DNA of 21,732 nucleotides from positions 1-21,732 of the IMG/VR virus record IMGVR_UViG_3300045999_000629. One strand, written 5' to 3'. Numbering within the stretch: the stretch's first letter is position 1; every line of letters starts with the position of its first letter. Shown here in pieces: positions 10,096 through 12,344 of the stretch. The DNA comes from a virus. Under the pieces are notes generated by a model that saw nothing but the letters and a program-made list of their open reading frames with translations, searched no databases and was not told the DNA's origin. The translations under genes and the position numbers were made by a program.

Positions 10096-11094
10096 TCAGA
10101 CGTTGCGGAAAGCACCGGCACAGGACACACGCACGGGGCCAGCACCGTAGGCCAGCTTACCGACGATCACGTCGCCCTGGTAGATGACCTTGGTGTCGGC
10201 ACCAGTGGTCTGGACCGAAGGACCAATCGCCTCGACAACGCCAGCAGCGTCACGATGGAAGATCAGACCGCAGCTGTTGGTGAAGTTAGCAGCAACACCG
10301 TAGTTGTTGTTCTCACCGGTCACAGCAGCCGCATCGATGGCGGTACCAGCAGCCGAACCATACTTGCCCAGGAAGGGGATGTTGTTCGACTTGTAGATGC
10401 GGATACCAGCGATCTCATAGAGACCTTCGCCGCTGTTCAGGTTGCCCTGGCTGTTACCATACTCACGATTGAGGATGTTGGTATCAACCTGGCTGATCAG
10501 GGCGTAGTACTGGCGGGGGCTCAGAACGGCCACACGACCATCCTTAGGAGCAGCAATCTCGTCCAGGCGAGCAGCGGCTTCAAAGAAACCGTCCACGAGG
10601 GCCTGAGCATCATACTCCTTGGAGGCACCCAGGTTGACCTGGAAACCACCGGGCTCACCGGTCACAGCAGCGGTCAGACCCGAAGCACGGTCAAGAACGC
10701 GGAAGATACGACGGTCATAAAATTCAGCCAGGCTCTGGCCGATCTGACGGGCGATGGGGCCACGGATGTCGTACTGAGACAGGGTCTCATTCAGATCATA
10801 CACGAACGCGCTGGCGACCAGCAGGTCATCCATTGCGATGGTGGTCTCAGCCACAGGAGGGTTGCCCGAACCGAGGATAGCGGTGCCGGGGGTGTGATAC
10901 CCAGCCGAGATGCGGCCGGTGTGAATAAACTGGGCTTCCTTGCCGTTACGCAGGGTACGGTTCTGAACCAGACCCTTGGCAATGGTAGCATTACGGAAAG
11001 CTTCATACACCTCGCCGGTGAAGAGCTTCAGAAACAGAGCTTTAGTATCGCCGGCCTTATTAACCTGGCCGAGTTGGGTAAGAGTTGCAGTCAT
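10096..11094 (-). CDS. Major capsid protein (T7 gp10-like)
   Basis: The 332 residues match T7 gp10A in length (345) and pattern. The start contains GDTKALFLKLFTGEVYEAF (residues 15-33), the classic gp10 segment. It is followed by GKEAQFIHTGR with GYHTPGT (the E-loop region), a DLLVASAFVYDLNE helix, and VLSPRQYYALI (residues 190-200). The C-terminal part has GVVEAIGPSVQTTG and VIVGKLAYGAG. Codons end in C or G far more often than in the neighbouring genes, as expected for the most highly expressed structural gene. The leader has no obvious Shine-Dalgarno site just upstream of the ATG, which is unusual for a capsid gene. No slippery heptamer for a gp10B-style frameshift was recognised. Confidence 0.97.
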   Translation of the reverse strand: MTATLTQLGQVNKAGDTKALFLKLFTGEVYEAFRNATIAKGLVQNRTLRNGKEAQFIHTGRISAGYHTPGTAILGSGNPPVAETTIAMDDLLVASAFVYDLNETLSQYDIRGPIARQIGQSLAEFYDRRIFRVLDRASGLTAAVTGEPGGFQVNLGASKEYDAQALVDGFFEAAARLDEIAAPKDGRVAVLSPRQYYALISQVDTNILNREYGNSQGNLNSGEGLYEIAGIRIYKSNNIPFLGKYGSAAGTAIDAAAVTGENNNYGVAANFTNSCGLIFHRDAAGVVEAIGPSVQTTGADTKVIYQGDVIVGKLAYGAGPVRVSCAGAFRNV

Positions 11095-11126
11095 TGTTTT
11101 AAGGAAAGAGAAGGTTTATCAGCTTT

Positions 11127-11138
11127 CCAAGTACTTGG
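11127..11138. repeat. 12-bp perfect palindrome in the capsid leader
   Basis: CCAAGTACTTGG reads the same on both strands. It lies 32 bases before the capsid ATG, within the presumed untranslated leader. Without a loop it is more like a protein-binding site than an RNA hairpin, but no binding protein can be named. Confidence 0.5.
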
Positions 11139-11185
11139 GTTTTATCCGGATTTGAAGTATTCGGTTTTTAGAAAATACGTCCGTT

Positions 11186-11216
11186 GTATTGGGTGTCTGC
11201 CGCAGCAGGCCAATAC
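11186..11216 (-). repeat. 31-base compound hairpin in the capsid leader
   Basis: GTATTGG at 11186-11192 pairs with CCAATAC at 11210-11216, and an inner stem (TCTGC with GCAGG, one wobble) closes a four-base CGCA loop. No U-run follows directly, so it is not a clean terminator. It could be an RNA processing site or part of a regulatory leader. Confidence 0.55.
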
Positions 11217-11217
11217 T

Positions 11218-11231
11218 CCAGTTCGAACTGG
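11218..11231. repeat. 14-bp perfect palindrome next to the leader hairpin
   Basis: CCAGTTCGAACTGG is a perfect two-fold palindrome one base from the compound hairpin. Its centre, TTCGAA, resembles a tRNA T-loop, but no second tRNA can be built around it. It could be an operator or an RNA element. Confidence 0.5.
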
Positions 11232-11260
11232 GTTTTTAAAGAGGTTATCCCATCCTCAAG

Positions 11261-11329
11261 GGCATCAGTGGGAATCGAACCACACATACTCACCAACAAG
11301 GTGAGGCCTTACCATTAGGTGATGATGCC
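11261..11329 (-). tRNA. tRNA-like gene, possibly tRNA-Thr(UGU), with irregular arms
   Basis: The 69-base element has a perfect 7-bp acceptor stem (GGCATCA with TGATGCC) and a D-arm of CCT and AGG around an AATGGTA loop. Its anticodon arm is CTCAC/GTGAG with loop CTTGTTG, and the T-arm contains TTCGATT. Read normally the anticodon is UGU (Thr). Several points are irregular. The T-stem has GTGG opposite CCCAC, one G short, giving four pairs and an eight-base loop. The base between D-stem and anticodon stem is missing or unpaired. Position 37 is U rather than a purine. No CCA is encoded. It may be a functional phage tRNA, a decaying copy or a tRNA-like processing signal. The gene identity is uncertain because a shifted loop would read GUU (Asn). 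Confidence 0.55.
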
Positions 11330-11333
11330 AGCG

Positions 11334-11373
11334 ACCCCTCTGTTTGTGCTTCCAATGGATAGGCATGAGGGGT
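11334..11373. repeat. 7-bp inverted repeat flanking a 26-base loop, beside the tRNA-like element
   Basis: ACCCCTC (11334-11340) pairs with GAGGGGT (11367-11373). On the minus strand it ends four bases before the tRNA-like element, so it could be a processing stem in the tRNA precursor. On the plus strand it is followed by GTTTTATTTA and would look like a weak terminator for antisense transcription. Which reading applies cannot be told from sequence. Confidence 0.4.
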
Positions 11374-11376
11374 GTT

Positions 11377-11481
11377 TTATTTAGTTGTCCGCGCCGAAGG
11401 GCAGCGGGACGGTTCACCATCCACCGGGAATCCATCCGGTGTGCAATCGCCGTTACAATGCCACGGACGCGGGCAGTCAAT
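11377..11481 (-). CDS. Possible 34-residue Cys-rich protein with an ATT start
   Basis: Directly after the scaffold gene a different frame stays open for 34 codons, reading IDCPRPWHCNGDC and ending SRCPSARTTK. It has four cysteines in 34 residues and many codons ending in C or G. Its first codon ATT overlaps the scaffold stop as TAATT, exactly where two other junctions in this genome have TAATG. There is no ATG, GTG or TTG in this frame and no clear ribosome site. It may be a real gene with a rare AUU start, a gene that lost its start, or chance. Confidence 0.25.
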   Translation of the reverse strand: MDCPRPWHCNGDCTPDGFPVDGEPSRCPSARTTK

Positions 11482-12344
11482 TAAAGCAGATCGCCAGAAG
11501 CGGCAAGCTTTGTTTCTACATCCAATCGATAGGCAGGATCATTACGGTAGCGAGGGTCAGAAATGGCTTGAGCCAGTTCGGCTTGTGAACGGAATCCTTT
11601 AACGGAGTTTCGCACATTCTTACCAGAGACCTGTTGTCCTTCAAATCCCACGGAATCCCTATACTTTTGATTGAGTGCTTGAACAGCAAAGAAGATAGCG
11701 TCCTTGTTTCCGCTATTGACCACGTTGTCGTAGGCTGCTACTTCATTAGGAGAAAGATTATCAGCAGCCCAGGCAAGGGTTTGGTTGTAAGCATCAGCAC
11801 CTCCAACAGAATCCACAATGGATTTAGCATCAGCATCCGTCAGGACCTGAGGCGTTGCTGCTGGAGAGTTTCTGACATTATTCAGATATGCCTCGACAAG
11901 CTTTTCCGAAGGCATTTCCTTAAGCTTCTGAATGGTTTCAGGCTTAAGCTGATTGTTGTTGGAATAGTATTCTTCTGAGGCTGCCTTCAGAAATTCTGAT
12001 TCCTCAGAAACAGTTACCTCTTCTTCTTGATCTTCCTCTTCATTTTCTGACGACTCATCACTCTCAGTTTCTTCTTCTCCTGAGGAAGAGTCATTACTCT
12101 CTTTCTGTCCAAGTTTCTTTTCCAGCTCTTTATAAGCCTTCTCAAGATCCTCAGCAGATTTGAACTTACCAGCGTAACGAAGTTCCGATTCAGCATCCTC
12201 TCGGGCTTGATCGTACTTGCGCTGTTCTCGTTCTTCTTCTTGCTCAATTAGTTTTTCACCAATCTCAGCAAGGCGAGCTTCTTCGGTAAGACGACTTTCT
12301 TTAGCGTCAAGATCGTCAGTCGAGTCAAAGGTGTTTTCTTGCAT
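11481..12344 (-). CDS. Scaffolding (capsid assembly) protein, T7 gp9-like
   Basis: The protein has 287 residues; T7 gp9 has 307. It is strongly acidic with long Glu-rich stretches (about residues 37-112) and is predicted to be mostly helical or disordered, as expected for an internal scaffold that leaves the head on maturation. Residues 53-76 carry a YAGKFKSAEDLEKAYKELE motif, the recognisable element of this family. The C-terminal part (FRSQAELAQAISDPRYRNDP, residues 253-272) is also typical: a basic and aromatic end that contacts capsid protein. It lies between portal and capsid as in T7, and its start overlaps the upstream stop as TAATG. Confidence 0.95.
   Translation of the reverse strand: MQENTFDSTDDLDAKESRLTEEARLAEIGEKLIEQEEEREQRKYDQAREDAESELRYAGKFKSAEDLEKAYKELEKKLGQKESNDSSSGEEETESDESSENEEEDQEEEVTVSEESEFLKAASEEYYSNNNQLKPETIQKLKEMPSEKLVEAYLNNVRNSPAATPQVLTDADAKSIVDSVGGADAYNQTLAWAADNLSPNEVAAYDNVVNSGNKDAIFFAVQALNQKYRDSVGFEGQQVSGKNVRNSVKGFRSQAELAQAISDPRYRNDPAYRLDVETKLAASGDLL

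Follow-up and report, generated by a model that had tools for sequence, protein, structure and literature searches.

The DNA analyzed here (the window) is a stretch of 21,732 nucleotides from IMG/VR record IMGVR_UViG_3300045999_000629. It is part of the genome of a T7-like cyanophage, whose major capsid protein shares 72% identity with its counterpart in Synechococcus phage S-CBP2. Pfam matches identified portal, scaffold, capsid, ribonucleotide reductase and DNA polymerase genes, all encoded on the minus strand. A gap of 386 nucleotides separates the gene for the capsid assembly (scaffold) protein (11481-12344; Phage_T7_Capsid, PF05396, E = 2e-8) from that for the major capsid protein (10096-11094; Gp10A-like, PF21703, E = 5e-65). 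Read along the minus strand, this gap contains a structured RNA element just after the scaffold stop codon (11397-11478), an abiF-like hairpin (11334-11372), a tRNA-like element (11260-11329), and a structured capsid leader, UUGAGG...CCUC (11095-11259). The first of these is 84-96% conserved in relatives from the clade and had no Rfam match above the cut-off. The leader is conserved in an alignment of 12 leaders, with 80-95% identity in most relatives.

Several other features of these intergenic regions were observed. A hairpin with the loop GGCWUUGUA is found in the window within 11397-11478 (minus strand) and recurs in the leaders of S-CBP42, P60 and SS120-1; its stems vary (CCGU/ACGG, CAGA/UCUG, GAGA/UCUC), it belongs to no Rfam family, and it lies upstream of the tRNA-like slot in some phages and downstream in others. 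The leader and the "up" element of 10 relatives matched no Rfam family even at a relaxed threshold. A small ORF is inserted between the capsid leader and the capsid gene in L060-L063 and L069-L071; the copy in L061 matches Pfam LAGLIDADG_3 (E = 6e-6), and the insertion is likely a homing endonuclease targeting the region. Upstream of the capsid region of S-TIP28 (L083, 683-735) there is a Glutamine-II riboswitch (51.6 bits), and sequences resembling it are visible in P-SSP7, P-SSP2 and P-GSP1.

The tRNA-like gene in the window is real. The initial annotation, which let the element stand or fall with a tRNA model match and conservation in related phages, suggested scoring it with Infernal; both the match and the conservation were found. 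In an Infernal search of the whole window at the gathering threshold, the sole Rfam match was to the tRNA family (RF00005, 39.1 bits against a gathering cut-off of 29, E = 3.4e-5). The cloverleaf runs on the minus strand from 11329 to 11261, C at 11260 is the discriminator base, and no CCA is encoded. Its predicted fold energy is -25.9 kcal/mol, compared with -17.2 +/- 2.6 for shuffled sequences (z = -3.37), lower than in 198 of 200 shuffles. From 11329 downward, the 5' half consists of the acceptor strand GGCAUCA, UC, the D-arm ACCUAAUGGUAAGG, and C, followed by the anticodon arm CUCAC-CUUGUUG-GUGAG (anticodon UGU, 11298-11296) and UAU. The 3' half consists of the T-arm GUG[U]GG-UUCGAUU-CCCAC (11268-11285), the part retained in almost all relatives, the acceptor strand UGAUGCC, and the discriminator.

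The first description was right on the seven pairs of the acceptor (GGCAUCA/UGAUGCC), on the UGU anticodon and on U37. Two reported defects were not borne out: instead of lacking a G, the T-stem forms five pairs with one inserted base in the cmscan alignment, a bulged U at 11282 (GUG[u]GG/CCCAC), and a base, C11306, does stand before the anticodon stem. The copy nevertheless departs from a regular decoding tRNA, given the T-stem bulge and a U instead of a purine at position 37, and ARAGORN called no tRNA genes in the window.

For comparison, 80 loci were taken from IMG/VR, each with a gene for a close relative of the capsid protein. Among these relatives the flanks are strongly conserved, and the slot that holds the tRNA-like element is variable. 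Relative L024 illustrates this: it shares an identical 64-nucleotide stretch upstream with the window and a leader that is 94.5% identical, and the slot between them has no detectable similarity. Occupants of the window type were found in the window, L056 and L058. Their acceptor and T-loop are identical; the anticodons are UGU, UAU and CGU, respectively, and they also differ in the T-stem bulge (L056 has a bulged C where the window has its U) and in one anticodon-stem base, with pairing kept. The slot of L022 holds a tRNA-Asn-like element with C33, and L057, L067 and L182 have cloverleafs with anticodon loops of 6 or 4 nucleotides. L009 and L024 carry a separate tRNA-like family with the T-loop UGCAAAU. 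In L010, L025 and L075 the occupant is a mini-form that consists only of an acceptor, a short D-loop-like piece and a T-arm. Among the leaders of 79 relatives, ARAGORN called only L022/L023.

The slots of cultured phages are similarly diverse. In Syn5 and S-TIP28 the sequence is GGUAG-A-GCUGGUGC-...-GCAGGG-UUCGAUU-CCCUGC-CUACC. P-SSP7, P-SSP2 and S-CBP3 combine a T-arm with a small hairpin that replaces the D and anticodon arms, and in P60 and S-CBP42 a T-arm is present with the 5' strand of the acceptor lying within the end of the scaffold ORF. NATL1A-7 has an annotated canonical tRNA-Gly (CYIG_01001, 70.5 bits). Across the homologues, neither anticodon identity nor a seven-nucleotide loop with U33 is kept. 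No T-arm precedes the capsid gene of roseophage CRP-125, a relative that is not a cyanophage, and a BLAST search of the 79-nucleotide element against annotated phages returned matches at chance level only. The serine codon at the scaffold end is AGY in 30/30 relatives in which the T-arm overlaps the ORF (L005-type) and TCN in 25/25 of the window type; this perhaps reflects an RNA constraint on the coding end, and because the split is confounded by ancestry, it is not used as evidence.

The frequency of these structures was determined in 106 non-redundant leaders. A T-arm with a tRNA-type loop occupied the slot in 74 of these leaders, which come from relatives that are not independent, compared with a mean of 0.42 and a maximum of 2 in dinucleotide shuffles, with a T-arm descriptor and leader marks that were defined after the sequences had been inspected. 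An acceptor partner directly adjoined the T-stem in 43 of the 74, against 24.5 +/- 3.5 when the upstream sequence was shuffled. An alternative hairpin took the place of the T-arm in 23/106 leaders; no leader had both (hypergeometric P for the lack of overlap 2.5e-16). This hairpin has a near-invariant loop, CACCUCAGAGUCGGA, on a variable, covarying stem of mostly 5-11 base pairs, and replaces the tRNA-like element in S-CBP1, S-CBP4, S-RIP2, S-B28, SS120-1, NATL2A-133 and others. It was seen directly before the capsid leader in L086 (S-CBP1), L089, L317, L323, L073 and others. Nine of the 106 leaders were counted as neither; by eye, six of these (the window, L027, L216, L259, L275 and L285) have imperfect T-arms and L241 has a variant of the alternative hairpin, so that only L220 and L248 are without both. 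The statement in the initial annotation that T7-like phages rarely carry tRNAs at this position does not apply to T7-like cyanophages: in almost every one of them the position is taken by a tRNA-like piece or by a substitute hairpin.

The eight mini-tRNAs of the Syn5 type allowed an analysis of covariation. All of their 104 pair cells are standard (100%), and compensatory changes were found in 6 of 13 pairs; the T-stem has three of these, the acceptor two, and the two-pair mini-D stem one (GC-UGGU-GC changes to AC-UGGU-GU). The covariation score was 0.456, compared with 0.217 in shuffles, and slid controls did not exceed 0.14. In these mini-tRNAs the acceptor and T-arm, together with the elbow, appear from the pattern of substitutions to be under selection, and the anticodon arm appears dispensable. 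The mini-D loop retains UGGU, which suggests conservation of the tRNA elbow. A covariance model built on the eight sequences was run over both strands of 78 other sources (370 kb). At E <= 1 there were 29 matches; each lay on the coding strand, at a distance of 114-187 nucleotides upstream of the capsid start.

The 3' side of the element is its constant boundary. From the 3' end of the T-stem, taken as a stem of 5 bp, to the start of the leader (UUG...) the distance is 8 nucleotides in 55/75 elements and 9 in 15/75, counts that describe the set and are no blind test, as the patterns for the leader marks had been broadened once the sequences were inspected. A distance of 8 equals seven acceptor bases and a discriminator; the leader thus starts precisely at the point of RNase Z cleavage in a tRNA precursor. 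None of the 75 elements has a CCA at its 3' end; the hosts, too, mostly do not encode CCA, and 11/12 Prochlorococcus and 9/13 Synechococcus genomes have it in initiator tRNA genes alone (PMC5143459). The 5' side is variable, and in P60, P-SSP7 and S-CBP3 the stop codon of the upstream ORF comes only after the 5' strand. As this strand is sometimes inside the upstream ORF, only the 3' boundary is constant.

The structure of the element, its position, its conservation and reduction among the relatives, and its fixed 3' boundary are shown by the sequences. We propose that it is a processing signal through which host RNase Z would release the capsid mRNA, and we place the probability of this reading at roughly 60%. 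In the late transcript, the acceptor stem, T-arm and D-loop/T-loop elbow would be presented to RNase Z, the host enzyme for tRNA 3' ends. The enzyme would cut just after the discriminator base and so separate the capsid message from the upstream genes; in the window, the T-stem-to-leader distance and the missing CCA place the predicted cut between 11260 and 11259. The released capsid mRNA would start with UUGAGG and have the conserved leader hairpin GAGG...CCUC as its 5' end, and the upstream mRNA would then have a compact tRNA-like fold at its 3' end. Processing would not require the anticodon arm. A structured 5' end slows the entry of RNase E. From these features we infer the cleavage, RNase Z as its enzyme, and an effect on mRNA stability or capsid dosage. 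Both RNase Z and RNase P are present in cyanobacteria (PMC10989914), and RNase P could cut as well as, or instead of, RNase Z.

Release by RNase Z does not account equally well for every occupant. RNase Z may act poorly on forms that have only a T-arm, such as L005 with its 6-nucleotide loop and weak acceptor; the T-stem bulge of the window's own copy counts against this reading as well; and the 23 relatives with an unrelated hairpin mean that the tRNA fold is not strictly required. Still, among the explanations offered in the initial annotation, a processing signal is the best supported, in view of the boundary at the RNase Z position, the absence of CCA, and the relatives that are reduced to acceptor, T-arm and elbow.

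Because CCA is absent, the 3' boundary fixed, and many forms reduced, decoding is unlikely to be the shared function; the conserved role of the slot is very probably a different one. The complete cloverleaf of the window copy, with U33 and an anticodon loop of 7 nucleotides, might be read as a working tRNA-Thr (UGU) that serves late translation by reading ACA codons, and the good tRNA-Gly of NATL1A-7 in the same slot is in keeping with this. However, the anticodon changes between near-identical copies (CGU in L058, UAU in L056), L022 has C33, the anticodon loops of L067 and L182 have 6 and 4 nucleotides, and the mini-forms dispense with the arm altogether. With U37, the T-stem bulge and the negative ARAGORN result added for the window copy itself, we consider a decoding tRNA improbable. 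A relic of an attachment site, or a tRNA gene in random decay, would fit the imperfect T-stem and the atypical U37, but decay leaves the compensatory stem changes and the position kept among relatives unexplained. The attachment site found no support either: a single 21-nucleotide pattern from the T-arm/acceptor half had 0 exact matches in GTDB genomes of 84,980 species. We give this explanation hardly any credence.

RNase P also recognizes the combination of acceptor, T-arm and elbow, and the full-length slots have a clean 5' side; if it were the main enzyme, a cut on the 5' side would leave the tRNA-like element as the 5' end of the capsid mRNA. This is unlikely, since the conserved boundary is the 3' one, and because the 5' strand precedes the stop codon in P60, S-CBP3 and P-SSP7, such a cut would remove the stop codon. 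The element might instead go uncleaved and act as a stable barrier, as a protector of a 3' end, or through the translation of neighbouring genes. The substitution of a non-tRNA hairpin at the same place, never together with a T-arm, fits such a role, but a barrier needs neither the T-loop motif nor the mini-D loop nor the tRNA spacing, all of which are kept, and we consider this unlikely as well. A role in counter-defence, with a tRNA decoy next to a mimic of an antitoxin, is suggested by the abiF-like hairpin that adjoins the element, by slot contents that vary between phages with matching flanks, and by an abiF RNA annotated in cyanophage S-CREM1 (PMC9964418). The hairpin at 11334-11372 is a possible family member only, scoring 30.6 bits against RF03085 (34.1 in L059 and 33.9 in L009) where the cut-off is 37; the match is limited to part of the clade, and decoys for anticodon nucleases would retain the anticodon arm. 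We regard this role as improbable too. The inner stem of the hairpin shows a compensatory change, AGC/GCU in L057 and L009 versus UGC/GCA in the window, and it is possible that the RNA mimics a host AbiF antitoxin.

T-arms were also found away from the capsid gene. A descriptor scan of the complete genomes of P-SSP7, Syn5 and S-TIP37 gave, by hand count, 16 hits on the coding strand (one of them possibly on the other strand of P-SSP7, which leaves the picture unchanged), and 8 of the 16 fell within the 7.4% of the sequence that is intergenic (P = 7e-6). Beyond the capsid slot, the intergenic T-arms are at 630 and 1027 in P-SSP7, 2728 in Syn5, and 1015 and 1468 in S-TIP37; all lie 52-59 nucleotides before a gene, with the exception of P-SSP7 630. 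A weaker T-arm in P-SSP7 (2576-2598), about 40 nucleotides before PSSP7_003, is followed by AUUG and a hairpin. In the early regions of P-SSP7 (L325, L326) and S-TIP37, these T-arm elements stand 52-59 nucleotides upstream of early genes. Some weak model matches elsewhere, inside genes (S-CBP42 12586) or in repetitive coding-like sequence, look like chance. The few early-gene cases suggest, at the level of sequence, a more general punctuation system. In its full version, which we advance tentatively and at somewhat less than even odds, full, mini and T-arm-only elements at early and late junctions would be cut by RNase Z, and the CACCUCAGAGUCGGA hairpin would be the equivalent in other lineages.

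The closest parallel is the tRNA punctuation model of mitochondria, in which intergenic tRNA structures are cut by the enzymes of tRNA maturation and mRNAs are released (PMC8601606). The slot likewise places a tRNA structure between genes as a proposed release signal; in contrast to mitochondria, it belongs to a DNA phage, its elements are mostly too reduced to be tRNAs, and cleavage is a prediction. MALAT1/mascRNA and NEAT1/menRNA are examples of tRNA-like structures that do not decode and are used in RNA processing by the tRNA machinery (PMC11693755, PMC12941219). In those cases a long non-coding RNA of the host gets its 3' end from the fold, whereas the phage element would release a downstream mRNA.

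Among phages, the RNase III sites of T7 are structured intercistronic signals at which the transcript is divided into units; they are double-stranded hairpins cut by RNase III, whereas the cyanophage slot has tRNA-like folds. The C4 RNA of P1/P7 is a phage RNA processed by RNase P, a host tRNA enzyme, but C4 is a short antisense regulator and the cyanophage element a recurrent candidate for mRNA punctuation. The tRNA-Gly of NATL1A-7 sits in the same slot, directly before the capsid leader, and is canonical and high-scoring, whereas the window copy is divergent. A search of full-text literature that covered few subscription papers turned up neither tRNA-like punctuation in phage mRNAs nor an account of this cyanophage slot, an absence that is weak evidence.

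T7-like cyanophages are abundant in the ocean, and we found no description of how their capsid message is separated and dosed. If the proposed reading is true, a DNA phage co-opts host tRNA maturation for the processing of its mRNA, with a signal that in some phages is reduced to the minimum that a tRNA enzyme should need. Exact transcript ends would then be predicted in the model phages P-SSP7 and Syn5, and some annotated phage tRNA genes may be processing signals and not decoding tRNAs.
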